This document shows, in pieces, positions 13,274 through 30,257 of a stretch of 64,000 nt of DNA. The notes beneath the pieces are model-generated. The model was not told the origin of the DNA, did no database searches, and saw only the letters and a program-made list of their open reading frames with translations. Origin of the DNA: Paenibacillus sp. BIHB 4019 (lineage in GTDB: Bacteria; Bacillota; Bacilli; Paenibacillales; Paenibacillaceae). A program made the position numbers and the translations under genes. Numbering within the stretch: the stretch's first letter is position 1; each line of letters opens with the position of its first letter. The stretch lies in the NCBI RefSeq assembly GCF_002741035.1, contig NZ_CP016808.1, positions 992,001-1,056,000 on the forward strand. Direction: 5' to 3'.

Positions 13274-15880
13274 TTATGTGCGCCGCGCGGAATGCCTGCG
13301 GACACATAATAGGGCGGCCGCTGCCGACAGCTCCTCTGGCAGCGGCGCTTGCCAGGCACGCCGCTGCTCATAGCGGGCGGCGTCATCCCATGTGACGAAG
13401 CGCTTCAAGGCTTCGGACTGAGACGCAGGCAGCAGAGCGGCTTGCGCTGCTGCGTATTGCCTTGCTGTTTGCTGCGGCTGCCTTTTGGCTACGCAGCGGT
13501 CCAGCTGTGGCCAGATTGCCGCCGATACTGCGGCAAACTGCTTTTGGACGCCGCCGCTGCCCCGGGCCGGCGTCACGCCGCGGGAGGCGGCGCTGTAGCG
13601 GCGCAGCGCCAGCCACAGGCGCAGCCGCCTGCGCTGCGCCGCAGCGCAGAGCACGGCTGCCAGCGCCAGCGCAGCCGCGCCTGCGGCGCCTTTAGCGGCG
13701 GGCGTCGCCCCCGCCGCTGCCTCGGCGGCGCCAAGCGCCGCACGCGCAAGGGCATCCGCCCCTTGCGCAAGAGCCGTGGCGGCCTGCTCAGCCGCCGCCA
13801 CAGCCAGCGCTTGCGCGCGCTGCCCCATCGGGCGCGCAGCAGCGCTGGCAAATGCTCCGGCGGCCCCTTCGCCGCCCGCCGCTGCACTGCCGGCTGTGCC
13901 GGCCAAGCCCGCGAGCGCTGCTCCCGCGGCTGTCCCTTCGCCGCCATACCCCGGCGTCGGATCAAAAGGCACCCACCCTGCGCCTGGGAAGTATACCTCC
14001 ACCCAGGCATGGGCGTCCTTGCCCTTTACTTCATAAGCGGCCAGCTTCATGCCTGCATGTGCCGCATCATTTCGTGCATCCGGCTGCTCCGCGGACACGG
14101 TTCCGGGCGCAAAGCCTTTCACCCATCTGGCCGGAATGCCTTGTGTACGAAGCATAATGACCATTGCACTGGAAAAATGCACGCAATACCCTTCATGCTG
14201 CTTAAACAAAAAATCGTCCACGAAATCTGCTCCGGCCCCAGGGACCGCACTATTTTCAGCTGAATAGGTGTAGCTGCTTCGCAAATAAGTTTCAACCGCC
14301 TTCACCTGATCATAGCGGCTCGTTACTCCGCCTCCCGATACCTCTGCTGCCAGTGCAGCAACACGGCTCGGCAGCGATTCCGGAAGCTGCAAATATTCGG
14401 CCAGCGCTTCCTTCTCTCCCGCTTGAATGCCGCCACTGCGCAAGGCAGCTTCATCCATCACGGGAAGCAGCGTCTGAACGGTGTACTGGTCTATAAGCAC
14501 CTTATCCGAAGGAGCGTATAACGTTCCCGTCGCTTCATTTTTCAAATAAGTGTTCAGCTTGCTTCTTGGCTCCGAGGAGGTTAAATCAAGCAAAGTGCCG
14601 GAGGTTCCGCCCATAAAAAGCGGGAAGCCGCGCTCCGCCTGTTTAAGAAGCACCGTCTGAACGACAATTCGATCCGGGCTGACGGTCGTCTCCGCACCTG
14701 CCCCTTGGCTTCTTATATCCCCCTCTTCTCCAGTCTCTGTATCTGTCTCTGTATCTGTTTCTACCACTGTCTCTGTATCTGCCTCCGATTCTACCTCTGC
14801 AAGGGCTTCTACCGCCTCTACCTCCACGCTTCCCTCTCCACTAGCAGACGCAATCCGTTCCCCGCCATTTGTAATAGGCAGCAGCGTCGTACGCTGCTCC
14901 GTTTCCTGCCAGCCTTTACCGGTATAAAAAGCTTTCGTCTCCCCGCGCCAATACGTGCGAACAGGAGACAGCCCCGTAAAAACAAGCCGTTCATCCTGCT
15001 TTAGCGGAGCGCCTAATGTGGTGTCATCAAATCCATAGCCTGTGGAAGCGTAGCTTCCGCTCGCGGCTGCCGAGGCCAGCGCAGCCTTCGGATTGCCGTG
15101 ATCCAAACCAAGCACATACTGCTCCAGGCTTGCAGTTAGCGGTTGTGTCCAGCCCGCGGGGCTATTTGCCACGGATTTTCCTCCAGAAAATAGAAGTCCG
15201 GCGCCCAGACACAGCCCCACAACAACGAAAGCAGAAGCCGACCAGCGATAAGAAGCCGTCTGCGCTTCCTCCTTGCTTTCTTCTCCCTGCAGCGTTCTCA
15301 TGCGTGCAAACATGACAATCGCGCCAAGCAGCAGGCCTTCCGCTGTCACACGCAGCAGCGCATTCAGCACATCCATGCCAAGCCATGCATGCAGAAAAAT
15401 CAAATACCCTGCCGTTATGCCGGCCAAAGCCAGCCCCAGCTGGCGCAGCCAAATTAAAGCCTGCAGCGCGGGCACAAGCAGCCCAAAGCCGGTAAACAGA
15501 AGCAGCGCCTGCAGCTCTGTTGACATTCCCCACGCTACCGCTCCCATGCTGAACAGCCCGCCAGCTTCCTCGGCAAAGCGGCTGGCAAAACCAGCTGCCC
15601 ATTCCAGCGGTCCCACTTCTGGGCCTTTGTAAAGACGCATCAAGCCTGTAATGCCGATGGCGGAATAAACGACAAGCATGATATACCAAGGCGCTCGCAG
15701 TAAGCCAGCTATAGCAATACAGCCTACAAATACAATAAGAGGCTGAGCCACATCAATATAATAACGGCTGCCTGCCTCCGACCATGGAAGCATCCACTCC
15801 GCAAGCAAGCCAAGCAGCAGCAAGCTCGTCAACAGGCGGTAGCCGAATGCCGGCTCCCCTTGCGCATTAAATATCGCCAT
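13274..15880 (-). CDS. Membrane transglutaminase-like protein (TgpA/YebA family)
   Basis: This 868-residue protein has about six N-terminal membrane segments (residues 10-215), an outside region with an Asp/Glu/Thr repeat (DTETDTETG), and a transglutaminase core. The triad is visible: Cys566 in HEGYCVHFSSA, His624 in DAHAWVEV and Asp640 in PFDPTPGYGG. After it comes a strikingly Ala/Gly-rich spacer with one more membrane segment, encoded by very GC-rich DNA (about 13560-13960), and a cytosolic DUF4129-like tail. The family is thought to modify or cleave envelope proteins, but substrates are unknown. The ATG follows GAAGGA and overlaps the DUF58 gene by 14 bases. It is the third gene of the moxR-DUF58-transglutaminase operon. 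Confidence 0.92.
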   Translation of the reverse strand: MAIFNAQGEPAFGYRLLTSLLLLGLLAEWMLPWSEAGSRYYIDVAQPLIVFVGCIAIAGLLRAPWYIMLVVYSAIGITGLMRLYKGPEVGPLEWAAGFASRFAEEAGGLFSMGAVAWGMSTELQALLLFTGFGLLVPALQALIWLRQLGLALAGITAGYLIFLHAWLGMDVLNALLRVTAEGLLLGAIVMFARMRTLQGEESKEEAQTASYRWSASAFVVVGLCLGAGLLFSGGKSVANSPAGWTQPLTASLEQYVLGLDHGNPKAALASAAASGSYASTGYGFDDTTLGAPLKQDERLVFTGLSPVRTYWRGETKAFYTGKGWQETEQRTTLLPITNGGERIASASGEGSVEVEAVEALAEVESEADTETVVETDTETDTETGEEGDIRSQGAGAETTVSPDRIVVQTVLLKQAERGFPLFMGGTSGTLLDLTSSEPRSKLNTYLKNEATGTLYAPSDKVLIDQYTVQTLLPVMDEAALRSGGIQAGEKEALAEYLQLPESLPSRVAALAAEVSGGGVTSRYDQVKAVETYLRSSYTYSAENSAVPGAGADFVDDFLFKQHEGYCVHFSSAMVIMLRTQGIPARWVKGFAPGTVSAEQPDARNDAAHAGMKLAAYEVKGKDAHAWVEVYFPGAGWVPFDPTPGYGGEGTAAGAALAGLAGTAGSAAAGGEGAAGAFASAAARPMGQRAQALAVAAAEQAATALAQGADALARAALGAAEAAAGATPAAKGAAGAAALALAAVLCAAAQRRRLRLWLALRRYSAASRGVTPARGSGGVQKQFAAVSAAIWPQLDRCVAKRQPQQTARQYAAAQAALLPASQSEALKRFVTWDDAARYEQRRAWQAPLPEELSAAAALLCVRRHSARRT

Positions 15881-17474
15881 AACGAATCCTTCCCTTCGTT
15901 AATTGCGGCTGTTCATTCATCCGCTCCGGGTACGTCAGCCAATATGTGCGGACACCGAAGCTCTCCAGCCATTTCTGCTGCTCGCGCATTGCAAAAGAAG
16001 GCGTGCTTTGCTTGATCAGCATATAAAGCAGCACTTGGCAGCCCTGCTCCGCTGCTCGCGAGGCCATCTGCCCCCAGCTTGCGCTATTGCGCCAATCGGC
16101 GGTAAAACAGCGCAATATGCCGCCTCTAGGCATCTGGTCAAGCTCGCCAATTACCCTTGCAACAAACCGGCCATGCTGCACCAGCTTCAGCCGTGCGAGC
16201 TGTTCCAGCAGTTCTTGCATACTTGCGGCTGTGCTGTTGTCCTCGTAGGCACCCGTTTCCGGCCATGCATTTATCTCAGCGTTCGCCAAACTTCCGACAT
16301 CCCTTTCCTGCCCCTCATCCACTTCCGCTCCCGAATACATTCCTGCCCCGTTATCTGACTGTCCCGATACCGATGGCAGGATCGATGCCTCTTTCACTTT
16401 TCCCCTTGTCCCACCGTCGTCTAGAACCGCTTGGCCAGCAATGAGCTGCACCCGATTTCCCGCTAAATGATCCTGCTCCAGCACGCCGGCAGCCCACCCG
16501 GCACAGGCATCAAAAAACCTTTCGTCACCAGCATAAGCAACCGCAGTGTTGTCAATGGCCAAAAGCACCAATGGGCGATGAAGCGCTGTGCCATGCTCCT
16601 TCGTGTGCAGCCCCCGCCCGCGAGCGGCAGCCTTCCAATTGACATGGCGCAGCGAATCCCCATCCCGGTATGGACGCATCTCAGGGCCAATTCCTGCCTG
16701 TCTGCCGGAATGCTGGCCTTCAGACGGCTCACGCCCTAAGCCCGCCTCCTGAGCATCCATCTTGCCCGGATGCAGCCTAATGATAGTCGCTAAGCCGCTT
16801 CCCCGAAGCACCGCCGCACCTGGAGCTGCTACAGCCTCCGGCAATGCAGGAACCGCAAGCAGCCCGCTGCGGCAAGCAAAGGTTCGGCTAACAGCCGTTA
16901 ATCCTAAATAATCGCTTGCCGTAACGGTAACCGCCTCAAAGCTATGCTCTCCGCGCCGAATAAGCTGCGCCCGATAGCTAAGCGCGAGTCTTGTTTCGAA
17001 ATGAAGCTGCGCCGCATAGCGATAAGAAACTCGCTCCTGCTTTGCCGTACTCCCATTGACCATCGTATCTTCAAGCGCCAGCCAAACGAACGGAATAGGA
17101 AAAGCGCGGCCCAGCATCAGCTGCACCTCAACCTCTCCCCCATCGCGAATTGTGCCTTCGCCAAGCATGCGGCGCACCTCCATGCCTCGCATAGCAAGCC
17201 AAGGCAGTCCGGCGCTTAGCAGCATGATGCAGCCAAGCACAGCGAACATAAACCACTCCACCGCCATTCCTCGCTGAATGACAGCAGCGAGAGCAGCGCA
17301 CCAGCCCGATAGCAGAAGCAGCCAGCCTCCCCACCTTATCCGGCCCAGCCTCTGCTGTCCCAACTCCTGCTCCGCTTCTGCCTCATGCTCAGTATCCGCT
17401 GCTTTCGCTTGCCCTTCTCCAGCATCCGCTTGCCCTAGTTTCACTGCCTCGTTATCCGCACTGGAAACCGCCAT
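15867..17474 (-). CDS. DUF58 domain protein (YeaD-like)
   Basis: This is a 535-residue protein with two membrane segments near residues 50-95, followed by a beta-rich middle and the DUF58 core. The signature RPYRDGDSLRHVNWKAAARG is present, followed by a VWA-like fold (LLAIDNTAVAY). DUF58 proteins accompany MoxR ATPases and are regarded as their clients or adaptors. A variable Gly/Asp/Ser-rich insert lies around residues 350-410. The ATG overlaps the moxR stop (TAATG), so translation is probably coupled; the 3' end overlaps the transglutaminase gene. Exact function is unknown. Confidence 0.92.
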   Translation of the reverse strand: MAVSSADNEAVKLGQADAGEGQAKAADTEHEAEAEQELGQQRLGRIRWGGWLLLLSGWCAALAAVIQRGMAVEWFMFAVLGCIMLLSAGLPWLAMRGMEVRRMLGEGTIRDGGEVEVQLMLGRAFPIPFVWLALEDTMVNGSTAKQERVSYRYAAQLHFETRLALSYRAQLIRRGEHSFEAVTVTASDYLGLTAVSRTFACRSGLLAVPALPEAVAAPGAAVLRGSGLATIIRLHPGKMDAQEAGLGREPSEGQHSGRQAGIGPEMRPYRDGDSLRHVNWKAAARGRGLHTKEHGTALHRPLVLLAIDNTAVAYAGDERFFDACAGWAAGVLEQDHLAGNRVQLIAGQAVLDDGGTRGKVKEASILPSVSGQSDNGAGMYSGAEVDEGQERDVGSLANAEINAWPETGAYEDNSTAASMQELLEQLARLKLVQHGRFVARVIGELDQMPRGGILRCFTADWRNSASWGQMASRAAEQGCQVLLYMLIKQSTPSFAMREQQKWLESFGVRTYWLTYPERMNEQPQLTKGRIRYGDI

Positions 17475-18502
17475 TAGCGCCGCCCTCCCGCCGCTTGCGG
17501 CAGCACGGCTGCGGGAAGCGGCGTAGTGCGCAGCAGCTGCTCTACGAGCTGTGCTGCTGTCATCCGCAGAGGTGCCCCCGGATATACCTCCAGCCGATGT
17601 GCAAGTACTGCTTCGCCTGTCGCCAGCAAATCATCCGGCAGCACATAACCTCTGCCTTCCAAATATGCAGAGGCCTGTGCCGCCCGCAGCCAATCCCTGC
17701 CGGCACGCGGGCTCATCGCCAGCGCCAGCTCAGGCATTTTCCGCGAAGCGTCTGCCACTTGCACCATATATTCAATCAGGCCAGGATGGACATGGGCCAG
17801 CCGCACTTCCCGCTGCATCCGCAGCCATTCCTCCGGCATGACCACTGGCCTGATTTTATGAGGCTCCTGCCGCTGCCCATCGGCATATTGCTCCAGCAGC
17901 TGCTTCTCAAACTGCGGCTCGGGATATCCAATGGACAGCCGCATCATAAAACGGTCCAGCTGCGCCTCCGGCAGCCTGCTCGTCCCTTCAAAACGCAGCG
18001 GATTTTGCGTAGCAATCAGCATAAACGGCGACGGGAGCGGCCTTGTCTCCCCGTCCACCGTAATTCGCCGCTCCTCCATCGCTTCAAGCAATGCGGACTG
18101 GGTACGGGCGGAGGCGCGGTTGATTTCATCCGCCAGCACGACATTGCCCATAATCGGGCCTGTTACATACTTTAGCTCGCCACGAGCCGCATCCCACACC
18201 GCTCCGCCCAGCACATCCGACGGCAGCATGTCCGACGTAAACTGAATGCGCTTGAACTCCCCGCCAATGACGCGGGCACACGCTTCTGCAAGCACGGTTT
18301 TGCCGACTCCCGGCTTATCCTCCAGCAGCACATGCCCACCCGCCAGCAGCGCGGTGAACATTTGCTTTACCAGCTCCCGTTTGCCTAGCAGAACGCCTTC
18401 CACACGCTGGAGCATGCGATGAATAAGCATCTGCGGCAGCTCCTGCCATACATCCGTCTCCTCTTGCCGAACGGTAGATTGGTATTTTGAATGAATCATC
18501 AT
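17474..18502 (-). CDS. MoxR-family AAA+ ATPase (YeaC-like)
   Basis: This 342-residue ATPase starts at the ATG ending at 18502; the frame continues upstream to 18604 but only through repeat copy B, so the longer start is rejected. Walker A is DKPGVGKT (about 62-69), Walker B VVLADEINRA, sensor 1 ATQNP and the arginine finger is in EAQLDRFMMRL. A C-terminal lid domain follows. MoxR ATPases act as chaperone-like remodelers for VWA or DUF58 partners. It is the first gene of a three-gene operon that in Bacillus subtilis (yeaC-yeaD-yebA) precedes guaA. AGGAAGG upstream serves as ribosome binding site with slightly long spacing. Confidence 0.93.
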   Translation of the reverse strand: MMIHSKYQSTVRQEETDVWQELPQMLIHRMLQRVEGVLLGKRELVKQMFTALLAGGHVLLEDKPGVGKTVLAEACARVIGGEFKRIQFTSDMLPSDVLGGAVWDAARGELKYVTGPIMGNVVLADEINRASARTQSALLEAMEERRITVDGETRPLPSPFMLIATQNPLRFEGTSRLPEAQLDRFMMRLSIGYPEPQFEKQLLEQYADGQRQEPHKIRPVVMPEEWLRMQREVRLAHVHPGLIEYMVQVADASRKMPELALAMSPRAGRDWLRAAQASAYLEGRGYVLPDDLLATGEAVLAHRLEVYPGAPLRMTAAQLVEQLLRTTPLPAAVLPQAAGGRR

Positions 18503-18523
18503 TAGACAACCTGCCTTCCTCTC

Positions 18524-18620
18524 AAGCGTAAACGGCTGAAGCCCTCCTCTGGCGGCTAAGCTACCGTTTCGCGGTTGAAATATAAGCCATTTATAAGTGT
18601 GCAACTTATAAACGCTTTTA
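18524..18620 (+). repeat. Dispersed double-hairpin element, copy B
   Basis: Parts in order are AAGCGTAAACGGCT, CCTCTGGCGGC, ACCGTTTCGCGG, AAATATAAGCC, ATTTATAAGTG and AACTTATAAACG. It is very close to copy A in sequence. It starts about 20 bp before the moxR start codon, so it lies in that gene's leader or promoter. Confidence 0.8.
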
Positions 18621-19554: not shown

Positions 19555-19612
19555 AAAAAAAAAGAGAAGGAACCGACCTGCGCAGCGACGCAGTGTCCGG
19601 TTCCTTCTCTTT
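19555..19612. terminator. Strong terminator, best on the minus strand
   Basis: AAAGAGAAGGAACCG pairs with CGGTTCCTTCTCTTT. A run of nine A before it gives a T-run on the minus strand, ending the operon that stops at 19671. It can also end the GyrI-like gene. Confidence 0.88.
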
Positions 19613-19670: not shown

Positions 19671-19949
19671 TTACTTCTGTTCAGCAAGCTGAATATATTG
19701 ATAAAGACGGGAGCTATGAAGGAGCAATAACTGCTCCTCCCCGCCTCCCAGCACCACTTTGCGCCCTTCGCTGGCTGCTTGCTTCAGCAGCGTTGACAGA
19801 AAATCCAATTGCAAGCGGGCAGCTTCCTCCGCTTCGCGCTCCAGCCATTCGATATCCTTCAAGGCAAGCTGTGCCGTCCCCCGAAGCAGCAGCTCTTCAA
19901 ACCAGCTGCGCAGCCGCTGCAATCCATCGTATACCTGCTCCAAAGCCAT
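19671..19949 (-). CDS. Small helical protein, last gene of the MoxR/VWA operon
   Basis: This 92-residue protein starts at the ATG ending at 19949, eight bases after AAAGGAG; an upstream in-frame ATG at 19970 has no such site. It is predicted to be almost wholly alpha-helical and rich in Leu, Glu and Gln, with amphipathic stretches LRSWFEELLLRG, LEREAEEAARLQLDFLSTLL and LLLLHSSRLYQYIQLAEQK. No known family is recognised. It begins 35 bases after the SWIM gene stop and is followed by the operon terminator. Its position suggests a small partner of the SWIM or DUF4132 protein. It has no signal peptide and no cysteines. Confidence 0.75.
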   Translation of the reverse strand: MALEQVYDGLQRLRSWFEELLLRGTAQLALKDIEWLEREAEEAARLQLDFLSTLLKQAASEGRKVVLGGGEEQLLLLHSSRLYQYIQLAEQK

Positions 19950-19984
19950 GCCTGCCGCTCCTTTTCCCAATCGCTTATCGTCCC

Positions 19985-21706
19985 TTACATGTCTAGCTTT
20001 AAGCTGATCAGCTTCGTATTCTGCAGGAAGCTGATCGGATAAGCCTGACCGCCCTCCATTCGTACAAATGCATAAAACTGTTCCAGCGACGCAGCACCAT
20101 ATCCGGCTTCCAGGCGTTTGACGGTTTTTTCCCAGTCTGCTTGATAAGGAAGAATCAGCTCCAACTGCTCGCCTGCCTCATCCTCCACTTCAAGTACAAG
20201 GCTTTGCGAGCTTTTATCGAATCGGTTTCCTGTAATCCGGGCTAACTTAATTAAGGCAAGCCGTTCCTTTACGTCTGAAAATAATGCCGGCTGCTCCACT
20301 CCAGCCTGCCGCAATGCGGGCAAATCCGAGGCAAGCTTCCCCTTATTAACCTCGTTAATGGATTGTCGGGCGACAAGAGTAAGGCTCGCTCCCTCGCCTG
20401 ACGACAATCGGCGTTCCTCGTTCACTTTAATGTGCTCGAACACCAGCTCTTCTCCGGCAAATTGACGCATCGTCATGCTTGCAAGCCAAGGCGAATAGCC
20501 GGCATAATGCTTGGCAAACGAAAAATCATTGCCTTCATAATACACAGCCCGTGCATCCGTGTAGGTATACACCTGCCCATCATCGAGCCCATACATATAA
20601 TAGGTGATGCCTCTGTAGCCTGATCGTGTCTCCCACGGCTCAGCGCCAAGACCATATAAGCGCAGCTTCGGCAGCGAATAATATTTGCTGCGAAAAGCAC
20701 CGATGAGCTGTTCCTTCTTAGCAGCGGGAAGCGTCTCCCGCTCAAGCAGCTCAAGGGCAAGATACAGCTTGGTGACACGATCCAGCAGCACTTGCATGGA
20801 AAATCGCACATGGCGGTTGAAAAACAGCTCCAGCTCGCCCTGGATGCCGCGCAAGCCGCGCTCTACATCCGGCAGCTGGCCACTGCGCGCTGCGACAGCC
20901 AGCGTTTCCAGCTGTGCCGTATACGACTGGGGCAGACGGGCAAGTCCCGTCCGCAGCATCGCATGGATCAACTCCTTGCATTCCCTTACGGTATCGGGCG
21001 AAAAAGCCGCCTTGTACACTTTGCTGCGCAGCGCTTCCTGGTCATCCAGCCCCTTTAAAGCGCGGTAACGTAATAAAGCTTCCAGCTTTAACAGCTCGCC
21101 GGACCTATCCTTTATTTTGCAAAGCGCCTTAGCCGGGTTTGCTTCCTCAGTGAACGAAACCTCCGCACCTTGGAGCTTGAGACAGACCGTAAGAAGCGCA
21201 TTTTGTGCCACTTCCAGCTCTTCCGGGTAGCGCAGCCGAAACAGCACTTCCTCCACAATGGAAACATTAAACGGCTTAATCAATGGTGAAAGCTCGGCAG
21301 ACAGCAGCCAATTAAAGCGTTCCTCAGTGCCGCCTATCTGTTGCTTGCTGCCTTCTAACTCTCCTTCCTCGTGTGCAGAAGAAGAAGATGATGATGTTGA
21401 TGATGTTGATGTTGATGGCAGCTGCTGTGAGTAAAACAAAATGGCTATCAGCACATGCTTGCATAAGCTGTCTGACGGACATGTACACTTCCAGCGAGCC
21501 AGCGTATTTTCCAGCGTGCAGACCGTCCCGTCGTTCAACTCGCAGCTGACGGACGTTTCTCCCCAAGCATATTTGACATCAACGCCTTTGCTGATATCTT
21601 TTAACGCCCGATTATATATACCCTTGTTCGAATATCGAACCAAATAATCCTCGGTACATAGCTTGGCAAACTGCCCAAAGCTCGTTTCAAATGCGGCAGC
21701 TGACAT
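19985..21706 (-). CDS. SWIM zinc-finger protein
   Basis: This 573-residue protein starts at the ATG ending at 21706, one base after the upstream stop. The SWIM zinc finger is CTCPSDSLCKH: Cys74, Cys76, Cys82 and His84. SWIM fingers bind DNA or mediate protein contact. A low-complexity Ser/Thr linker (about 98-112) follows, then a long helical region and a C-terminal beta-rich part with YRGITYYMYGL. In other bacteria SWIM proteins of this size are found next to MoxR, VWA and DUF4132 genes, as here. Its role in the complex is unknown; target recognition is a reasonable guess. The reading frame extends to 21757, but only by overlap with the previous gene. Confidence 0.88.
   Translation of the reverse strand: MSAAAFETSFGQFAKLCTEDYLVRYSNKGIYNRALKDISKGVDVKYAWGETSVSCELNDGTVCTLENTLARWKCTCPSDSLCKHVLIAILFYSQQLPSTSTSSTSSSSSSAHEEGELEGSKQQIGGTEERFNWLLSAELSPLIKPFNVSIVEEVLFRLRYPEELEVAQNALLTVCLKLQGAEVSFTEEANPAKALCKIKDRSGELLKLEALLRYRALKGLDDQEALRSKVYKAAFSPDTVRECKELIHAMLRTGLARLPQSYTAQLETLAVAARSGQLPDVERGLRGIQGELELFFNRHVRFSMQVLLDRVTKLYLALELLERETLPAAKKEQLIGAFRSKYYSLPKLRLYGLGAEPWETRSGYRGITYYMYGLDDGQVYTYTDARAVYYEGNDFSFAKHYAGYSPWLASMTMRQFAGEELVFEHIKVNEERRLSSGEGASLTLVARQSINEVNKGKLASDLPALRQAGVEQPALFSDVKERLALIKLARITGNRFDKSSQSLVLEVEDEAGEQLELILPYQADWEKTVKRLEAGYGAASLEQFYAFVRMEGGQAYPISFLQNTKLISLKLDM
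21377..21417. repeat. Trinucleotide microsatellite in the SWIM gene
   Basis: A run of GAA, GAT and GTT triplets on the plus strand encodes the Ser/Thr linker after the zinc finger. Length changes would keep the frame. Confidence 0.8.
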
Positions 21707-21707
21707 G

Positions 21708-24700
21708 CTAGCGTCCCGATGCCCGCAAAATATCATAGATCGTCTCACTGAATACACGGCCTGGAATTTTGCCCAAATCTAGAGCCGGAATATCACTGTA
21801 GTAGCTGTATTGGCCTTTTTCATTCGCATGAAATTGCAGCTGCTCCAGCGTAATGTCTTCCAAGCCTTCGTAATAGGTGATGCTAGTCCCGCTAAAGCGC
21901 AGCTCGGCAAGCCAATCACCATAGTCCTTATACAGCTCGCTATACCAGCCGCCATCCTGAGCTTGGCCTTTGTACCAGCCATATTTCTCAAGCGCCTTAG
22001 GAAACGCTGTAGGCGAAAGCTCTGATCTCGGCAAATCCTCATATACCGTGCTTCGCTGGCTTTCTTCTTCCACGAGATGGATTTGGCGATTCAACTGCTC
22101 AAATGGCTGCTTGATTTCATAATCGTCCAGCTGTGATTTCCAGCCCTCAAGCGTTTCCTGATCCAGCTCAAGCGGATGAACCAAGCCGACTTTGGCATCA
22201 GCAGCAAGCTCGTATTCGTCTTCATCTACCGTGTTGAAGGTACCGTCCTCCATATAACGGAATGTGTCTGTAAGGCTGCCTTGTTCATACACGCCCCAGA
22301 TGAGGCCGACGGCAAACTTCTGCATGACGATATTGTTAACGAACAGTGCCGTCCATTCTTCAGCCGTCCACAGCCGCTGCTTGGACAACGATTCTTCCAG
22401 CCGCTGCGCTTGGATGCCGACCATCGTTTTCAAATCTTTTTTGAGCAAATTGAAATCAGCCTTCGCTTTCGCAGCCAGCTCCGCATCATCCTTTTGCCCC
22501 GGCACAGGCAAGCTTTTGAGCGGTTTGCCCGTTTCTTCATTGATGACAATAACCTCCAGATTCCGGTTCACCTTCACCTGGAAGGTACGCTCGCCATAGC
22601 TGAATTGCTGAGCACCCTTATCATCAAAGCCAAGCGACGTGACCAGGCGGTCTTCGAGCTGCTCTGGCGTAAGTCCTTGATTTTCCGCTGCCAGCTGCAG
22701 CGCCTCCTCAGCCGCGCCCTTTACCTGACGGTTTTTGACGGTTCGCTTGATTTTGTCAATGGCCATTAATGCGGCAGGCTCGCTTAAATAAGATAAAGCC
22801 TTGACCGCTTCCGCCGCCATTGCGCCGCGGCTATTTTCCGTCCATTCCTTAATTTGCGGAGCTAAAATTTGTATCAGCCTGCGATCACCGAACAATGCGC
22901 CTACATACAGCACCCATTTTTCCTTCGCAGGCGCTTCGCTTTGAATCCACAGCTGAATGAGCTCCGCAGCGAAATTTGAAAGCGAATCGCTGTTTACATA
23001 AGAACGCAGCTCGTTCAAGCGCTCATTCGGAGCCGTCGTATGATCCATCGATTGAAGCATTAAATACGACTTAATTCGGTCATCTACCTGCTGCCCCTCC
23101 AAATCCATTAATGCGGGCAAATCATTTACGGACAGCCAGCTGAGGCGGGCCGTTTTTTTGGCATCCGCTTGATCTGCAAGCGCTGCGTGCGCATGAACTG
23201 GGCTTAAATCAGCCGTTTCCAGCAAAATTTGAATAAGTGTGCGCCAGTCCTCCGATTTTTCCGTTTCCAGCAATTGCTGGTAAGCCGCCTTGCTGCCTGT
23301 TACGCTGCGCAGAGAGTTTAGTACCAGCTCTTTAATCGCTGCTTTTTTCTCGGTGCGATACAGGGTTAAATATAATGTTTCGTCAGGCACTCGGCTGAAT
23401 TCAGCCAACGCAGCTCCGCTTGCTTTCTTCGACGAATCCAGCAGCCCTGCTCGAATGGCTTCCGTCAGCTGGTCAAGGGTCAACGCATCGCGATCCTCGA
23501 AAGCAATTTCGAGCACGGTTAGCCGGGAGTCTGTAGGCAAATTCTTATATTGCTTCAATGAATCCGTCAAATTGTTCCTAATAATGGATCGATATTCGGT
23601 TTGCGGCATCGAACGGTAGTAATAATCTCTCATGCCATTAAGCATCAGCAAGCCCGAAAGCAGGCGCTCCCGGCTCACCTCAGGATCTTCTCCATAAAGC
23701 TCCAGCAGCTTTTGTCCGCTAAACGAGTAGGAATGATACATTTCCGACACAAGAGTCAGTGCATCGCATTCCGGTCGTGTAATCAAAATGGCCAGCCGCT
23801 TTATATAAGGCGAATCGGGAGGCAAGAAGCTTACAGCTACAAGCAGGCTTTTGCGTCTGCTGTCCCGGTTCCTTGGGTCAAACAACGAGCGATTCGTTTC
23901 ATCCTTCCAGTAATCCTCGAAGGAAGTTTCCCCTTCCAAATAACGGGCGAGAAACAGGCCATGACGCCCTCCCTCCGATTGTCCCCTTAATACAGCGAAT
24001 ACCGCCTGCGTAAGTGTGCCGGCTTCATCTGGCAATGCAATCCCGCCATCTGTGAGCACCTTATGCAAATAAGCTTTGTAATACGCCGAACGTAAAATTT
24101 CATAAGCACGCAAAGCTTGATCCGGCACACTAAGCACATAGCTTTGCAGCGCGCTCCACGGCACCATATAACTATTTAGCTCTCCGCTTAGCCGTTCAAT
24201 TAACTCATAAGGCTCCTCGAAAGGAACGATGCCCTCCAGCAGCTCGTCCGGCTTTTTGGCACGTCTGTCAAGGGCAAGCAAATGCTGGCGGACCTCAAGC
24301 GGATATACTTCATGCAGCGTTCTGACTGCATCAAGCAGCGCTAAGCCTAAATCCCCCGGCTCGTCCAGAAACAGCTGCTTGCTGCCTTTAACGTTAATGA
24401 CATATAACAAAGCGCTATGAATCTGGGTCAATGTCCGATTAAATAGGGTGCGGGAAACTTCTCCGGTCTCCTGTGCTTGGAGATCAGGAAAATGTGCCGC
24501 AATCGTTTTTTCGCGTTGGCCCGTTATAAAGTCCGCGCTCAGCTCCCGAACAGAATAATTTTCCTTTGCTTTGAACGGGTACGCGATGATCGGCTTCACC
24601 GCAGCATTCAGCAGCTCGCGAAGCTGCTCCGTATTTTCAGCCAATACCGCTTGCAATATTTCTGGAAACTCGCTCGCAAGCCTTTGGCTGTTAAACTGAT

Positions 24701-25253
24701 GGGTCGAGGTACTATCAAGCAGGGAGTACAGCTTTAGAAGCAGCAGCGTATTAATAATAACGCCTGTATCTCCAGCATCCTTTTTGCCAAAATTGCATTT
24801 GCTAACCCTGCTTTTCAGCTCATCCATAATCGCCTTATCGCCGGCAAATTTATGTATTTTCTCCATTCGTGGCAGCAGTGACTGCAAGCGCTGGCTTCCC
24901 GCTTTGCTTTTTCCTGCCAGCCCTAACGCATAATGCCCGTCGCCCAAGCAGATTGCGAGGCTGTATCCCTGCCAATAATAGCTTCGGCTAGCATTGAGTC
25001 CCATTCGCAGCATGAGTGCACCTGCACGAAAAAACACATCGCTGTCATCCTTCTTCGCAAGCTTCTCAAACAGATCCATCGAACGGTAGGCATATTGCAT
25101 GGAATCAGGCAGCAAATCCGGGAATTGCTCTGTTCTGCCCATTACATAATCGATAATGATTGCGCTGCGGTCCGTATTCTTCGAATATTCCTGCGAGAGT
25201 GCTTCTCCAAACTTTTCAAATAAGGCTTCAACATCCCTGTTTTCCGTTATCAT
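21708..25253 (-). CDS. DUF4132 domain protein, 1181 aa
   Basis: This very long, mostly helical cytosolic protein carries a C-terminal DUF4132 region. The N-terminal 850 residues look like alpha-alpha superhelical repeats, for example KALSYLSEPAALMAIDKIKR and RLNELRSYVNSDSLSNFAAE. DUF4132 features lie around 960-1110: WTALFVNNIVMQKFAVGLIW, FRYMEDGTF, KVGLVHPLELD and QPFEQLNRQIH. The domain has no proven activity. In some relatives it follows a WGR domain that binds nicked or modified DNA; no WGR is visible here. GGGAGGAACAGGATC precedes the ATG and the gap to the VWA gene is 20 bases. As the largest operon member it may be a scaffold or effector. No catalytic residues can be assigned with confidence. 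Confidence 0.9.
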   Translation of the reverse strand: MITENRDVEALFEKFGEALSQEYSKNTDRSAIIIDYVMGRTEQFPDLLPDSMQYAYRSMDLFEKLAKKDDSDVFFRAGALMLRMGLNASRSYYWQGYSLAICLGDGHYALGLAGKSKAGSQRLQSLLPRMEKIHKFAGDKAIMDELKSRVSKCNFGKKDAGDTGVIINTLLLLKLYSLLDSTSTHQFNSQRLASEFPEILQAVLAENTEQLRELLNAAVKPIIAYPFKAKENYSVRELSADFITGQREKTIAAHFPDLQAQETGEVSRTLFNRTLTQIHSALLYVINVKGSKQLFLDEPGDLGLALLDAVRTLHEVYPLEVRQHLLALDRRAKKPDELLEGIVPFEEPYELIERLSGELNSYMVPWSALQSYVLSVPDQALRAYEILRSAYYKAYLHKVLTDGGIALPDEAGTLTQAVFAVLRGQSEGGRHGLFLARYLEGETSFEDYWKDETNRSLFDPRNRDSRRKSLLVAVSFLPPDSPYIKRLAILITRPECDALTLVSEMYHSYSFSGQKLLELYGEDPEVSRERLLSGLLMLNGMRDYYYRSMPQTEYRSIIRNNLTDSLKQYKNLPTDSRLTVLEIAFEDRDALTLDQLTEAIRAGLLDSSKKASGAALAEFSRVPDETLYLTLYRTEKKAAIKELVLNSLRSVTGSKAAYQQLLETEKSEDWRTLIQILLETADLSPVHAHAALADQADAKKTARLSWLSVNDLPALMDLEGQQVDDRIKSYLMLQSMDHTTAPNERLNELRSYVNSDSLSNFAAELIQLWIQSEAPAKEKWVLYVGALFGDRRLIQILAPQIKEWTENSRGAMAAEAVKALSYLSEPAALMAIDKIKRTVKNRQVKGAAEEALQLAAENQGLTPEQLEDRLVTSLGFDDKGAQQFSYGERTFQVKVNRNLEVIVINEETGKPLKSLPVPGQKDDAELAAKAKADFNLLKKDLKTMVGIQAQRLEESLSKQRLWTAEEWTALFVNNIVMQKFAVGLIWGVYEQGSLTDTFRYMEDGTFNTVDEDEYELAADAKVGLVHPLELDQETLEGWKSQLDDYEIKQPFEQLNRQIHLVEEESQRSTVYEDLPRSELSPTAFPKALEKYGWYKGQAQDGGWYSELYKDYGDWLAELRFSGTSITYYEGLEDITLEQLQFHANEKGQYSYYSDIPALDLGKIPGRVFSETIYDILRASGR

Positions 25254-25273
25254 GATCCTGTTCCTCCCAAAAA

Positions 25274-26503
25274 TTAAGTTATAATATCGCCGATCCAGTC
25301 GGCCAGCTCATTCGGTGTAATCGCCGCTACGTGAGCCCCCATATTGGTGAGCATCTGCGCTGCGTGCTTGTTATAAACAGAGTCCCCGTTAAAATCGAGT
25401 GCGGTCAGCACGAGCAGCTTGCAGCCTGCATCCAATATATCTTTGCAGGCCTTATACATATGCTGAATCGGATAACCTTCCTCCAGATCGCTGACCAAAA
25501 TGTAAATCGTTTTTCCAGGGTTTTCAATCAGCGTCTCGCCATAGCGCAGCGCTTTGGCAATATGCGTACCGCCGCCTAGCTGAACGTTCATGAGCAGATC
25601 CACAGGGTCCTCCAGCCTGCTCGTCAAATCAACAACCTGGGTATCAAAAATAAATAAGTGAGTGCGCAGCGCATTCAGCTTGTAAAAAATGCTCGCCATC
25701 ACCGCGCTGTAAATGACCGAGTCCAGCATGCTCCCGCTCTCATCCACGCCAATAATAATGTTCCATTTGTTATGCGGCTGCACATTGCCGTCAAAATAAA
25801 GACGGTCGATGACAAATCTGCCTTTTGTGCGATCATAGTTTTTTAAATTTCGAGAAATGGTTTTCTTAAAATTTAAATTGCGCAGCGACTTCACAGAGCT
25901 GCTGGCGTAACGGCTGCGTTTGCCGAGTATGCTCGCTTTCGCCTGCGATTCGAGCTTCTGGCGCAAATCCTCCACTACCGCACGAACAATTTCCTTAGCG
26001 CTTCTTAACACATCGCCCTTCATTCGTCCTTTGAATTGCAGGATGTTCTTGAGCAGATTCATATTAGGCTCAAGCGATTGAAGCAGCTTCTTATCCGTGA
26101 GCAGCTCGGTCAGGCCATAGCGGTCCAGCGCCTGCTTCTCCAATATTTCCACCGTCTGCTTCGGAAATAATTCCCGCACCTTATGCAGCCACTTGGGGAC
26201 GGTAAGCTCTGAGGCGCCCCGCCCGCCTGTTTTCCTGTAGCCCTGCTCCTCGCCGTATTCGCGATCATATAAATAGGCAAGCAGCTCATCCATTTCTGTA
26301 TATGAAAAATGTTCAGCCGAATAGCCTTCCGCTTCGCATAAGCCTTCCTCGGCAGCCTCGCCGAGGATGAGCCGCCAGCGATTCAAAGCCTCGGCCGACG
26401 TGCGGCCGCTTGAAGCGGCGGGAGCACTTGAGGCTTGCCCCATTTCCCTATGCTCATGCTTGTATTCGCTTTGATCATCCTGCCTGTTCAACTCAGCATC
26501 CAT
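25274..26503 (-). CDS. VWA domain protein, partner of the MoxR ATPase
   Basis: This 409-residue protein has a helical N-terminal half and a von Willebrand A fold from about residue 247. The MIDAS metal site is intact: Asp254, Ser256 and Ser258 in GVDESGSM, a Thr in LGGGTHIAKAL and Asp in YILVSDLEEG. MIDAS domains bind partners through a divalent cation, and MoxR ATPases are known to act on such proteins. There is no signal peptide. The ATG lies eight bases after AAGGAG and overlaps the DUF5682 gene by 16 bases, so translation is coupled. It probably delivers clients to, or is remodelled by, the MoxR ATPase encoded at 28872. Confidence 0.93.
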   Translation of the reverse strand: MDAELNRQDDQSEYKHEHREMGQASSAPAASSGRTSAEALNRWRLILGEAAEEGLCEAEGYSAEHFSYTEMDELLAYLYDREYGEEQGYRKTGGRGASELTVPKWLHKVRELFPKQTVEILEKQALDRYGLTELLTDKKLLQSLEPNMNLLKNILQFKGRMKGDVLRSAKEIVRAVVEDLRQKLESQAKASILGKRSRYASSSVKSLRNLNFKKTISRNLKNYDRTKGRFVIDRLYFDGNVQPHNKWNIIIGVDESGSMLDSVIYSAVMASIFYKLNALRTHLFIFDTQVVDLTSRLEDPVDLLMNVQLGGGTHIAKALRYGETLIENPGKTIYILVSDLEEGYPIQHMYKACKDILDAGCKLLVLTALDFNGDSVYNKHAAQMLTNMGAHVAAITPNELADWIGDIIT

Positions 26504-28884
26504 GCGGCAAACTCCTTCCGTATGGCTTCATCTAGCGCCTTGGCCTGTATAAGGGTCTGCTCATCTATAGGCGGTATCTCCAGCTCTCCTGGGTCTGCTT
26601 GATGCAGTGTAGCGACCCGCTCTGCAATTAACGACGTCTCCATTGGCGTAAAATAGGTAAACGCAAGCCGCAGCTCCGGCACCATCGCAATAAAATCATC
26701 CGGAGGAAGCTCCTCGATTAAATAATTCAATTCGCCCAGCAGCAGATCATCGTACAAAAAAGCATCGCGCGCGATTTCAAACATCCCTTGCAAATATTTC
26801 GCCGTCTGCTTGGCCTGCTCCGGCGTTCCGCGAACGTAGCTTCTGGCGCGCTCCACCATCTCTTCACGCGTCCGGTCTCCAAGCGCTGCTAATATAGCTA
26901 TCGCCACTCCCTCCAATTGCGGGGAGAGCTTAGGGTCCGACAGCAGCTCGCTCAAATGCCCCCTAAATGTATCATTCTGAAAATGCTCTTCAGGCGACTC
27001 TGCAAGCATAGCCAGCAGCTTAAGCCCTTGTATAATCGCTGGATGCTCATTCGAATGGATGGCTGCGAGCCCCCGCAGCTTATCTACCGCATTGTTATAA
27101 GCTTCTGCTACGAGCAGCGGCAATTGTTCGTCTGCCGCAAGTCCCAGCAATCTGCCATGCTGGCGCAAACGATTTAATACCGTAAGCGTTTGGCAAAGCG
27201 ACAGAAAATTTCCGTCTTTGCGCAAAGCGGCCTGCACCTGCTCATATAACCGCCTCGCTGTATCCTGCAAGCCCATAAGAAGAGCCTGCAGCAGCGCATT
27301 CGCGATTTCGCCGCTATGGTGATCGGGAAGCTCCTGTATCCGTTCCCCGATTTTGCGTGCTGCCGCCTCCTTGAGCGTTCCTCCATACAGCGAGTTTTCG
27401 ATTAATCTCGCCTCAATGCGGGACGAATACGCGTAGACCCAAGTTTCACGAACGAGATTCATATGCCGATAGGCGACCCAATCTGGTCCAGACTCCCGAA
27501 CGGCAAAATCCGGAACGAGGAAGCTCGCGCATTGCAGCAGTTGGCTAAGCAGACGATGCTCCGCCTTGGCGTACAGATCAAGCACCTTCTTGTGCTTGCC
27601 GGTCGTCTTAATCTGAAGCCCTGACGCAGAGCAGCGATTCTTAAAATCTTCAACAATCGGCACCGTAAACGGATTGGGAGCGACAATGCCGATTTTATCC
27701 CCTGTCAGAAGCAGGCGCAGCTCCTCAAGCGGCTTGTCCGTTGCAAGCGTCCGCTCCCCCTTTACGAAGGAGGAAAGCGCGGCGTCCAAAAGCTCGTACA
27801 CCCCGCCTTCCCTTTTGCCCCGAAGCACCGCAAGCCCTTGAATCATGCTGTATGCCTCAATGGCATCGCTCGTCGAAACCTCCTCCTGGCCTTTGCGCAG
27901 CTTGCGCATCAGCTCGGATAACAAGGCGAGCGCTGTCTGGTTATAGGGCTCTGTTTTATGCTGCAGCAGCTTATTCCAAATCAGCTCATAATAGTTCACA
28001 TAAGGCATCCCGCTCGCATATCCATTCAAGCGATCCGCTTCTTCGAACGTGTAGACCATCGGATACAGCTGCTGCTGGATGGTTCCCCCTTTTTTTCCCT
28101 GCTGCTCCTTCTGCTGTTCTTCCCTCGCAGGCCTGCCTGCTTGGGCAGCTTCCAGCAGGCCGTACGTATGAAAGCCGCCAGTAATCACTAGAACACGCTT
28201 ATGCTTAGTCGCAGCTTGCTTGATGCACTCTCTCATATACGCCTCTCTCGCCATATCTCCAGAGGCATGAAGCTGTTCCTCCGAATAGCACATACGGGAT
28301 AACGCGCAGTAAGTAAATACATTCCGTACAAAAGCTTCCGTCGTTGCTGCTTGCCCTTCGATTTCGAACAGCTTTTCCCACAGCTCGTCAAAGCTGCGGC
28401 AGTTCATTTTACGGCATAAACGATTAATAAAATCGGAGCTGGCAAGCAAGGTTTCATCCTGGATGGACGTCTCCTGTTTTTCAGCTTTGGTTCTCGACTC
28501 GTGACTATAATCCAGATCAATAAATGCCGCCGGTATGCCAAGAAGCGCCGCTTCCTTCATAGCCACATACTCTGGGGAATAACTTAACAGAGGATAATAG
28601 CAAGCCGATCTTCCGCCTTGTTCATCCTCGTAAGTGCAATACAAACTGACGGGCGTCTCCGTCGCCTCATCCGCAAGCACCGGAATGAGCGGGGTGCCGC
28701 TCGCTGGCCCTTCGATCAAGATAATGTCCGGCTTATATTGCTTAATCACCTTTAGCAGATGAAAGGAGCACGCTGGGCTATGATGGCGGATGGGAAAATA
28801 CACGGTGCCGCTGCTCAGGTTAAACACCTGCTGATCAAATAAGGACGGCAGCTCCTTGTCAGCCTCGCCCGTTAACCAATCCAT
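26488..28884 (-). CDS. DUF5682 protein (ChaN/TIKI-like fold suspected), 798 aa
   Basis: The N-terminal 270 residues carry hallmark motifs of DUF5682: RHHSP at 33-37, IILIEGP with Glu58, and VLVITGGFHTYGLLEA. Conserved His/Glu sets like these recall the EreA/ChaN/TIKI superfamily, whose members include hydrolases and metal-dependent proteases. The remaining 500 residues are helical repeats without a known domain. The ATG follows GAGGAAA and overlaps the MoxR stop region by 13 bases. The protein is cytosolic. An enzyme acting on a small molecule or protein under control of the MoxR/VWA pair is plausible, but no activity is established. The fold relationship is inferred from motif pattern only. 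Confidence 0.85.
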   Translation of the reverse strand: MDWLTGEADKELPSLFDQQVFNLSSGTVYFPIRHHSPACSFHLLKVIKQYKPDIILIEGPASGTPLIPVLADEATETPVSLYCTYEDEQGGRSACYYPLLSYSPEYVAMKEAALLGIPAAFIDLDYSHESRTKAEKQETSIQDETLLASSDFINRLCRKMNCRSFDELWEKLFEIEGQAATTEAFVRNVFTYCALSRMCYSEEQLHASGDMAREAYMRECIKQAATKHKRVLVITGGFHTYGLLEAAQAGRPAREEQQKEQQGKKGGTIQQQLYPMVYTFEEADRLNGYASGMPYVNYYELIWNKLLQHKTEPYNQTALALLSELMRKLRKGQEEVSTSDAIEAYSMIQGLAVLRGKREGGVYELLDAALSSFVKGERTLATDKPLEELRLLLTGDKIGIVAPNPFTVPIVEDFKNRCSASGLQIKTTGKHKKVLDLYAKAEHRLLSQLLQCASFLVPDFAVRESGPDWVAYRHMNLVRETWVYAYSSRIEARLIENSLYGGTLKEAAARKIGERIQELPDHHSGEIANALLQALLMGLQDTARRLYEQVQAALRKDGNFLSLCQTLTVLNRLRQHGRLLGLAADEQLPLLVAEAYNNAVDKLRGLAAIHSNEHPAIIQGLKLLAMLAESPEEHFQNDTFRGHLSELLSDPKLSPQLEGVAIAILAALGDRTREEMVERARSYVRGTPEQAKQTAKYLQGMFEIARDAFLYDDLLLGELNYLIEELPPDDFIAMVPELRLAFTYFTPMETSLIAERVATLHQADPGELEIPPIDEQTLIQAKALDEAIRKEFAAWMLS

Positions 28885-29975
28885 TTTCTTTCCTCATAAT
28901 AGTCCTTCCATATCACATCTTCCTTGGAGCGTTCTTTGACGACCTTGGAGAAGTAGGTTTTCAGGATGGACAAATCCTTCTCATTTTCCTTGGCAATCGT
29001 TCCGAGCATATTTTGCACAAGCCGATCAAGCGAAATCGATTTATTTTCATAATAATAGGAGGTCATCGCGCTTTGAACATAGACAGAAACCGCTTCTGCC
29101 GTGCTCATGGAGGCTGCGGGGATGTCGATTTTGTAGCCTTCGCGCGTAATGCCGGAGCGGAGCTCCATAAATGTCGTCGCCAGCAGCTCGACCACATTCA
29201 GGTCAATTTCGGCGTCAACGCCACTATGCATAAGCAGGCTTCGGGCCCCATTTTCAATAATTTTCGCTTCCATCTTCATGCTGCTGACAGGCTTAATCGT
29301 CTCGAAATTGAATCGGCGCTTCAAGGCACCGCTCATTTCGTTGACGCCTTTGTCGCGAATATTCGCCGTTGCTATAACGTTAAAACCCGGCTTCGCAAAC
29401 AAGACGCCGCCGTCCAGCTCAGGAATGTTCATCACCTTGTCGCTCAAAATGCTAATTAAACTGTCCTGCGCTTCCGCTGGGCAGCGCGTAATTTCTTCAA
29501 AGCGGGTCATAATGCCCTGCTTCATTCCATTATATAAAGGCGCTGGCACAAGCGCGGCCTCGGATGGGCCTTTGTCCAGCAGCATCGCATAATTCCACGA
29601 GTATTTGATCATATCCTCCGTCGTCCCGGCTGTGCCTTGAATCGTATTCAGGCTCGTCCCCGATATAGCCGCTGACAACAGCTCGCTGAGCATCGTCTTC
29701 GCTGTGCCTGGATCTCCAACGAGCATTAAGCCCCGGTTGCCTGCCAAAGTGACAACGGCCCGTTCGATCAGCACATCGTTTCCGTAAAATTTGCGGGTAA
29801 TGGCGACTTCTTTGCCGTCCACGACAGCCGGCTTGTCTCTGCCAATTATAAAGTCACGCACATAGGCCGGAGACAGCAGCCACTCGGGCGGACGATTTCC
29901 GGTATCCTCTTCACGCAGCGCACGCAGCTCTGCTTCAAATAACATCTCAGCCGGCGGCTTGATCATATCCATCAT
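28872..29975 (-). CDS. MoxR-like AAA+ ATPase, first gene of the DUF5682/VWA/DUF4132 operon
   Basis: This 367-residue ATPase starts at the ATG ending at 29975, six bases after GGGAG; an upstream in-frame start at 30005 is rejected. Walker A is GDPGTAKT at 87-94. The Walker B equivalent reads TRFEEITR, with Glu where Asp is usual, followed by CPAEAQDSLISIL. Sensor 1 is NVIATANIRDKG and the arginine finger lies in ALKRRFNFE. It differs clearly from the other MoxR at 17474, so this is a second, separate system. Subfamily members form hexamers that work with VWA proteins. A promoter with TTGAAA-18-TATTAT lies upstream, and all five following genes are on the same strand with tiny gaps. Confidence 0.93.
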   Translation of the reverse strand: MMDMIKPPAEMLFEAELRALREEDTGNRPPEWLLSPAYVRDFIIGRDKPAVVDGKEVAITRKFYGNDVLIERAVVTLAGNRGLMLVGDPGTAKTMLSELLSAAISGTSLNTIQGTAGTTEDMIKYSWNYAMLLDKGPSEAALVPAPLYNGMKQGIMTRFEEITRCPAEAQDSLISILSDKVMNIPELDGGVLFAKPGFNVIATANIRDKGVNEMSGALKRRFNFETIKPVSSMKMEAKIIENGARSLLMHSGVDAEIDLNVVELLATTFMELRSGITREGYKIDIPAASMSTAEAVSVYVQSAMTSYYYENKSISLDRLVQNMLGTIAKENEKDLSILKTYFSKVVKERSKEDVIWKDYYEERKWIG

Positions 29976-30022
29976 TGTGGTCTCCCTTTCGCAAAAACAG
30001 ATCATATGTTCTTATTTTTTAT

Positions 30023-30052
30023 ATAATACCATAGCACACGCCGTTCTTTCAA
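30023..30052 (-). promoter_or_regulatory. Promoter of the six-gene MoxR/VWA operon
   Basis: On the minus strand TTGAAA (30052-30047) is followed after 18 bp by TATTAT (30028-30023), 48 bp before the start codon. No operator palindrome is obvious. Confidence 0.6.
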
Positions 30053-30257
30053 AATATTGGACAAAAATGGTTGTTTCGAACCATTCACTTAGCACCATCG
30101 GGCTAGATTTTTCGCTATAAAATAGGTCTCATCATTGATAACATTTTGGGATTATATGTATTTGTAATTGGGAGGGACTGTAGCTTACGATCATTCATTT
30201 ATTTGTCTATGGGGAATTAACGTGGTTGAAAGCTTGTTCGATTCGGCAAAATGGAAT

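Follow-up and report, generated by a model that had tools for sequence, protein, structure and literature searches.

Six open reading frames (ORFs) on the minus strand of Paenibacillus sp. BIHB 4019 (NZ_CP016808.1, positions 992,001-1,056,000; this whole stretch of 64,000 nt is called the window, and its source genome is labelled G000) form an operon of the known YehL-type MoxR/VWA group. According to the ORF table they occupy window positions 19671-30005 and encode a MoxR ATPase, a DUF5682 protein, a VWA protein, a DUF4132 protein, a SWIM zinc-finger protein and a small protein of 92 aa. The operon may well specify a YehL-type MoxR/VWA protein-remodelling machine, a reading that we regard as evenly poised. 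What is new is two structural readings: residues 1-249 of the DUF5682 protein adopt, in the predicted structure, a TraB-type fold, and the small protein looks like a SWIM-protein domain that exists as a separate copy. The fold, its three candidate catalytic residues and the domain reading make the operon open to specific substitutions and pull-downs, and their relevance extends to yehLM of Escherichia coli, present in nearly all genomes of that species searched. No paper among those searched names DUF5682, and no functional study of the gene set was found among the matches listed.

Gene set and its co-conservation

The operon comprises, in the order of transcription:
28872..30005, minus strand: MoxR ATPase, YehL subfamily (Pfam AAA_5, 4.1e-34; 46.8% identity to E. 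coli YehL over 361 aa; motifs)
26488..28884, minus strand: DUF5682 protein, YehM family (Pfam, 9.4e-98; structure model; fold matches)
25274..26503, minus strand: VWA protein, CoxE/YehP-type (Pfam VWA_CoxE, 1.4e-42; 41% identity to YehP; motif counts)
21708..25253, minus strand: DUF4132 protein, YehI family (Pfam, 7.9e-48; structure model; Foldseek match to CAND1)
19985..21706 from ATG (ORF 19985-21757), minus strand: SWIM zinc-finger protein, YehQ-like (CTCPSDSLCKH; Pfam SWIM E 0.0088, sub-cut-off)
19671..19949 from ATG (ORF 19671-19970), minus strand: 92-aa small protein (neighbourhood hidden Markov models (HMMs), profile comparison, third-position bias)

Translation of moxR probably starts at ATG 29975, which follows GGGAG, rather than at 30005. 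With ATG 21706 for the SWIM protein and ATG 19949 for the small one, the spacing reported in the first-pass annotation of this DNA (overlaps of 13 and 16 bp, gaps of 20, 1 and 35 bp) is exact, and its MoxR, DUF5682, VWA and DUF4132 assignments are all matched in Pfam. Its SWIM call holds by the CxCx5CxH motif, present in the window protein and in 78/78 homologues found, and not by the Pfam score (16 bits against a cut-off of 19.6). The nearest DUF5682 protein among the matches listed, from Paenibacillus sp. Leaf72, is 97% identical.

A DUF5682-alignment scan of named genomes returned at least 596 pattern matches and at least 560 confirmed relatives; the loci studied are the best 80 of 560, a set which therefore favours near relatives of the window. 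HMMs seeded with window and E. coli sequences found MoxR in 80 loci, VWA in 79, SWIM in 78, DUF4132 in 74 and the small protein in 39. All five large families occur together in 74/80 loci, which answers the neighbourhood check proposed in the first-pass annotation (are the genes kept together?), and all matches lie on one strand in 80/80. Loci without a family are L078, L080, L083, L101, L112 and L113, and L078, L101 and L112 end where the genes would continue. The order MoxR-DUF5682-VWA-DUF4132-SWIM-small is exact in 30 loci, with two more containing split genes (L047, L068), and the order MoxR-DUF5682-VWA-SWIM-DUF4132 is exact in 27. The hosts include Paenibacillus, Saccharibacillus, Brevibacillus, Clostridium, many Lachnospiraceae and Oscillospiraceae, one member of Spirochaetes and one Tannerella metagenome-assembled genome. 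These counts support the co-conserved unit proposed earlier and make a single complex around MoxR/VWA plausible. In Paenibacillus sp. OVF10 (L068) four operon genes are each split in two ORFs, and in G015 (L015, L018) the DUF5682 gene is split; both cases may reflect decay or sequencing error.

The VWA protein falls in the CoxE family, and CoxD/CoxE are cofactor-insertion and maturation chaperones, which favours reading the operon as a chaperone of this kind for one enzyme, with DUF5682 in a structural role. To our knowledge no maturation system carries the DUF5682/SWIM/DUF4132 set, and no additional neighbour is as recurrent at these loci as the five families: flanking-ORF clusters in the 80 loci are mostly lineage-specific and the widest, among the top 14 clusters, is found in 18/80. 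The models for such a system, NorQ/NorD, insert a metal centre (PMC13036017, PMC9976466), and MolR, a relative of DUF4132, is named for molybdate (PMC8533742). We consider a maturation role unlikely.

The DUF5682 protein

The domain on which the first structural reading bears is:
28138..28884, minus strand: TraB-fold domain of the DUF5682 protein, residues 1-249 (predicted fold; His34, Glu58, His239)

The predicted structure of the whole protein (predicted local distance difference test, pLDDT, 87.0; predicted template modelling score, pTM, 0.78) consists of an N-terminal domain of TraB/Tiki fold and C-terminal HEAT-like helices. Profile-profile comparison with TraB, for which controls were run, gave Prob 86 and E 4.8e-6 over 37 columns, and full-length profiles gave Prob 62-65 over 203-204 columns; Pfam TraB was matched in 4/51 DUF5682 members, with a best E of just 0.081. 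His34, Glu58 and His239 are present in 101/101 DUF5682 N-terminal sequences, these being fragments found by the [RK]HxSP pattern (present in 101/101 collected; 22 further loci were picked by RH[HL]SP), so that the RH[HL]SP selection accounts in part for the constancy of residues 33, 34, 36 and 37, whilst Glu58 and His239 are unaffected. The first-pass annotation had named DUF5682 as a possible enzyme and proposed structure prediction; the TraB fold of the model lends support to that suggestion.

Several observations pull in the opposite direction. The Pfam matches of ChaN and TraB to DUF5682 members are about as weak as those of families unrelated to the Tiki fold, and Foldseek alone, with the DUF5682 model against the PDB, gave no match at E <= 0.001 (7w5z_E ranked 33, prob 0.85). 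The Tiki active site is of the 2His/2Glu type with the first Glu two residues ahead of the first His (PMC6254334), and in DUF5682 that position (residue 32) is Ile or Val, so that catalysis may differ or be absent. TraB proteins, which read GTAH at the first-His site, are likewise without Glu two residues before.

The MoxR and VWA proteins

The ATPase carries Walker A (GDPGTAKT), Walker B (FEEITR), sensor 1 (ATAN) and KRRF motifs. Its similarity to YehL, with which it has FEEITR in common, and the gene context with DUF5682, VWA and SWIM place it in the YehL subfamily of MoxR; against the Pfam bpMoxR family it scored 21.1, under the cut-off of 27. Walker B usually has Asp where in at least 77/81 MoxR ORFs (L037-L116 and the window) and in YehL, which read FEEITR or a near variant, Glu replaces it; this substitution is a point against the remodelling-machine reading. 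The VWA protein has an intact metal ion-dependent adhesion site (MIDAS; DESGSM, GGGTH, SD).

DUF4132, SWIM and the small protein

The model of the DUF4132 protein (pLDDT 87.4, pTM 0.63) shows a HEAT-like solenoid of about 870 residues and a C-terminal alpha/beta region holding the DUF4132 domain; Foldseek matched it to CAND1 at E 2.3e-5. The second structural reading concerns a part of the SWIM protein:
20693..21034, minus strand: helical domain inside the SWIM protein, with the small protein as its free-standing relative (HMM at residues 242-355; profile Prob 90)

The small protein matches no Pfam family, and direct search with it found two proteins. Its ORF appears to be conserved beyond chance, because 15 of the 21 differences between the window and G010 fall at third codon positions. 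Neighbourhood HMMs found it as a separate gene or, in Clostridia, as a C-terminal fusion to SWIM. A strict HMM of 33 free-standing Bacilli copies was run against 6,074 ORFs, its own members being left out; every rank below E 1 was an ORF of the system, and at E below 0.01 it recovered 14 more free-standing ORFs downstream of SWIM. Two long SWIM proteins (L076, L082) were matched at the C-terminus and another SWIM protein (L104) in its internal domain, with weaker matches ranking behind. An HMM of Bacilli SWIM domains matches the window SWIM protein at residues 242-355, and free-standing copies compared with this internal domain gave Prob 90 and E 1.6e-6 (reversed and five other profiles below 1), a test which is not wholly independent because the domain was delimited by iterated search; the evidence is the strict HMM, as the profile of the iterated one includes SWIM domains. 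The small protein thus looks like a detached copy of a SWIM-protein domain; that one lineage carries it fused and another free suggests packing on the SWIM protein.

The kinship is tempered by three results: the strict HMM matches the internal SWIM domain weakly (E 0.003 to above 1), the internal-domain HMM reaches free copies at no better than E 0.09, and neither YehQ nor YehK is matched. YehK, matched by neither HMM, was accordingly rejected as the counterpart of the small protein. The first-pass description of a "small new partner" has to be given up, as has its restriction to one lineage, for the protein is a conserved part of the system, kept as a separate gene or a SWIM fusion and related to a SWIM-protein domain.

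Expression signals and the question of LexA

Three elements can be read around the operon:
30023..30052, minus strand: extended -10 promoter TTGAAA-18-TATTAT with TG before the -10 (scan and aligned relatives)
30000..30011, minus strand: operator-like element GAACATATGATC just after the -10 (conserved in relatives)
about 19555..19609, minus strand: hairpin GAGAAGGAACCG...CGGTTCCTTCTC followed by a T-run, a probable terminator (read in the sequence)

The single promoter and single terminator proposed earlier are both readable, and the extended -10 recurs at this position in many aligned relatives; the scans were at chance level, with 12 promoter-like sites against 11.4 expected, a count so near expectation that the scan alone means little, and 14 terminators against 13.6, the hairpin at 19555-19609 not being listed. 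A second upstream block, at about 30063-30085 of the window (AAGGACGTTTCAACCATTTTT in relatives), is conserved in many Paenibacillus loci and precedes the -10 by some 30-40 bp.

The Firmicutes LexA box has the consensus GAACN4GTTC, from which GAACATATGATC departs by one mismatch. GAACRTAYGATC was found within -150 to +60 of the MoxR ORF start in 26/80 loci, these being all 26 Paenibacillus, Saccharibacillus and Neobacillus loci, and in 0/6 Brevibacillus and 0/48 remaining loci of the 80. An exact box was found upstream of the operon in 0/81 cases, and LexA control of the operon was rejected; the mismatch, constant in 26 loci, suggests another regulator. The other three copies of GAACRTAYGATC in the source genome lie near genes without an evident repair role, as judged by eye, and GAACRNNYGTTC is not enriched there (30 places against 57 for the backward control).

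The source genome has a second DUF4132 gene (DUF5724-DUF4132-DUF7737, 1645 aa; L036 4523-10222, equal to G000 C1 about 3525523-3531222; also L177-L180) with two exact GAACN4GTTC boxes upstream, 29 bp apart. The pair recurs in 3 of the 14 relatives examined, giving 4/15 loci in all (two fragments of a sixteenth genome, L192 and L193, left out), while a control palindrome occurs in 2/15 and 11/15 have no exact box.

A machine induced by DNA damage under LexA-type control, whose SWIM, WGR-linked and DUF4132 components operate at damaged DNA, would draw on these paired boxes and on the near-box GAACATATGATC. It would also draw on molR, which adjoins yehI and is listed as LexA-regulated (PMC11039860, PMC4576408), on CTGGATAAAATTACAG directly before yehF, the gene of a WGR protein, in E. 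coli K-12 (L003 2450-2465), which fits that listing, and on the Deinococcus operon drA0165-drA0166, whose second gene encodes DUF4132 and whose level rises when DdrO is depleted (PMC8533742). The pattern CTGN10CAG is found at 15 sites across the 24-kb E. coli stretch, so the CTGGATAAAATTACAG match rests on position and the published listing. Since the LexA evidence concerns neighbours or paralogues and not the operon genes, whose upstream regions lack the exact box and depart from it constantly, we hold such a machine to be very improbable.

Distribution and mobility

Eight of 398 Bacillota genomes exceed the DUF5682 cut-off and 11/398 have a match at E <= 0.001; amongst the weak matches L157 is TraB-like by sequence, L156 has no assignable ORF and L155 looked unrelated. 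A DUF5682 match is present in 13/40 relatives, the source genome counted. The genus holds two kinds of operon, that of the window (G000, G010, G014) and type-A, a paralogous operon which also occurs in the source genome (L021 2917-10879) and encodes SWIM, HEAT-like, MoxR, DUF5682 and VWA proteins (Pfam on L021 alone).

In G000 and G010 the operon is flanked by a DUF58-type moxR gene on one side and a peroxiredoxin gene on the other, these two being 14,986 and 13,426 bp apart (worked out by hand from the best match of each flanking gene). Of the other 23 same-genus relatives, 22 have both flanking genes on one contig, 185 to 28,008 bp apart (<=8,354 bp in 20/22), with no DUF5682 match on that contig; in G018 the two flanking genes fall on separate contigs. 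In G014 the operon and these flanking genes do not share a contig. Because presence and position vary among relatives, the genes behave as a unit gained, moved or lost. The neighbouring MoxR gene (17474-18604) is unrelated to that of the operon and adjoins a DUF58-like gene (15867-17474, sub-cut-off in Pfam) directly beside the operon (window 14001-18604); homologues at E <= 1e-60 occur in 24/24 same-genus relatives.

E. coli K-12 holds the same families, with identities of 47% (YehL), 41% (YehP), 34% over 329 aa (YehI), 26% (YehM) and 20% (YehQ). DNA of yehLM was found in 5285/5426 E. coli genomes, about 97% of the complete genomes searched, and 5164 of these have 80% or more of the query at a single place; it was chromosomal at 5292/5294 places and at least 95% identical in 5194/5287 records. 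The remaining 141/5426 genomes gave no yehLM match. A resistance transposon is reported in the metG/DUF4132/yeh region of one E. coli lineage (PMC9334617), and the genome-reduced strain DGF-298 is viable without molR-yehI-K-L-M-P-Q (PMC10652928).

The patchiness in Bacillota and the varying position in relatives would suit a biological conflict system, anti-phage or self-killing, in which DUF5682 would be the effector and SWIM/DUF4132 the sensor, as would the relatives in 30/72,556 plasmid records (several of the 15 listed are chromosome-sized) and the proposal of MoxR-vWA ternary conflict systems (PMC7159879). Such a role is decidedly unlikely, and the conflict reading of the first-pass annotation is weak: PADLOC matches 0/6 proteins, one phage record in 50,697 matches, the parts are little swapped among near relatives, yehLM is near-universal and chromosomal in E. 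coli, and the ternary systems described in PMC7159879, from whose main text the words SWIM, MolR and yeh are absent, have other third components.

Proposed mode of action

In the remodelling machine that we favour, a hexameric MoxR ATPase would remodel a protein or complex, coupled to this client via the CoxE/YehP-type VWA protein. Selecting and holding the client would fall to the HEAT-like DUF4132 solenoid and the SWIM protein, whose helical module would be supplied twice (once internally, once by the small protein); on the client the TraB/Tiki-fold domain of DUF5682, borne on its HEAT-like tail, would act chemically, most likely as a peptidase-like enzyme or ester hydrolase using His34, Glu58 and His239. 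Cell stress, possibly DNA damage, is our best guess for the trigger; complex formation and catalysis, like client and trigger, are deduced from the gene set, its co-conservation, the motifs, the TraB and HEAT-like folds and the relation of the small protein to the SWIM domain, as established by sequence comparison and structure prediction. Two further considerations count against this proposal: the client, activity and interactions of the operon products are predictions, and the type-A operon has another, HEAT-like protein in place of DUF4132, which is thus not obligatory. The stronger proposal, in which the MoxR/VWA motor would pass its client to a cytosolic hydrolase of TraB fold and about 97% of the complete E. 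coli genomes searched would carry a TraB-type peptidase coupled to an AAA+ remodeller, appears unlikely.

Comparison with known systems

The literature drawn on includes PMC3893208 and PMC11432383. DUF5682 shares with the TraB/PrgY/GumN and Tiki/ChaN/EreA superfamily the predicted fold of residues 1-249, profile similarity and the His...Glu...His arrangement, and differs in lacking the first Glu of Tiki ahead of His34, in its HEAT-like tail and in its place in a MoxR/VWA operon. MoxR-vWA ternary conflict systems of the VMAP, iSTAND and FtsH types (PMC7159879) likewise combine MoxR, vWA and a further component, but Pfam finds no VMAP, iSTAND or FtsH-type family over cut-off in the six window proteins. 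RavA-ViaA and NorQ-NorD also pair a MoxR ATPase with a MIDAS VWA protein, whereas the window operon has three more conserved large partners, a YehL-subfamily ATPase and a CoxE-type VWA protein (by Pfam and context). The E. coli region yehI-yehK-yehL-yehM-yehP-yehQ has the five large families in common with the window, with MoxR, DUF5682, VWA and SWIM in the same relative order; it differs in that the DUF4132 gene (yehI) lies upstream, no small-domain gene was detected and the WGR gene yehF is nearby, and the SWIM homology to YehQ is weak (E 1.8e-7).

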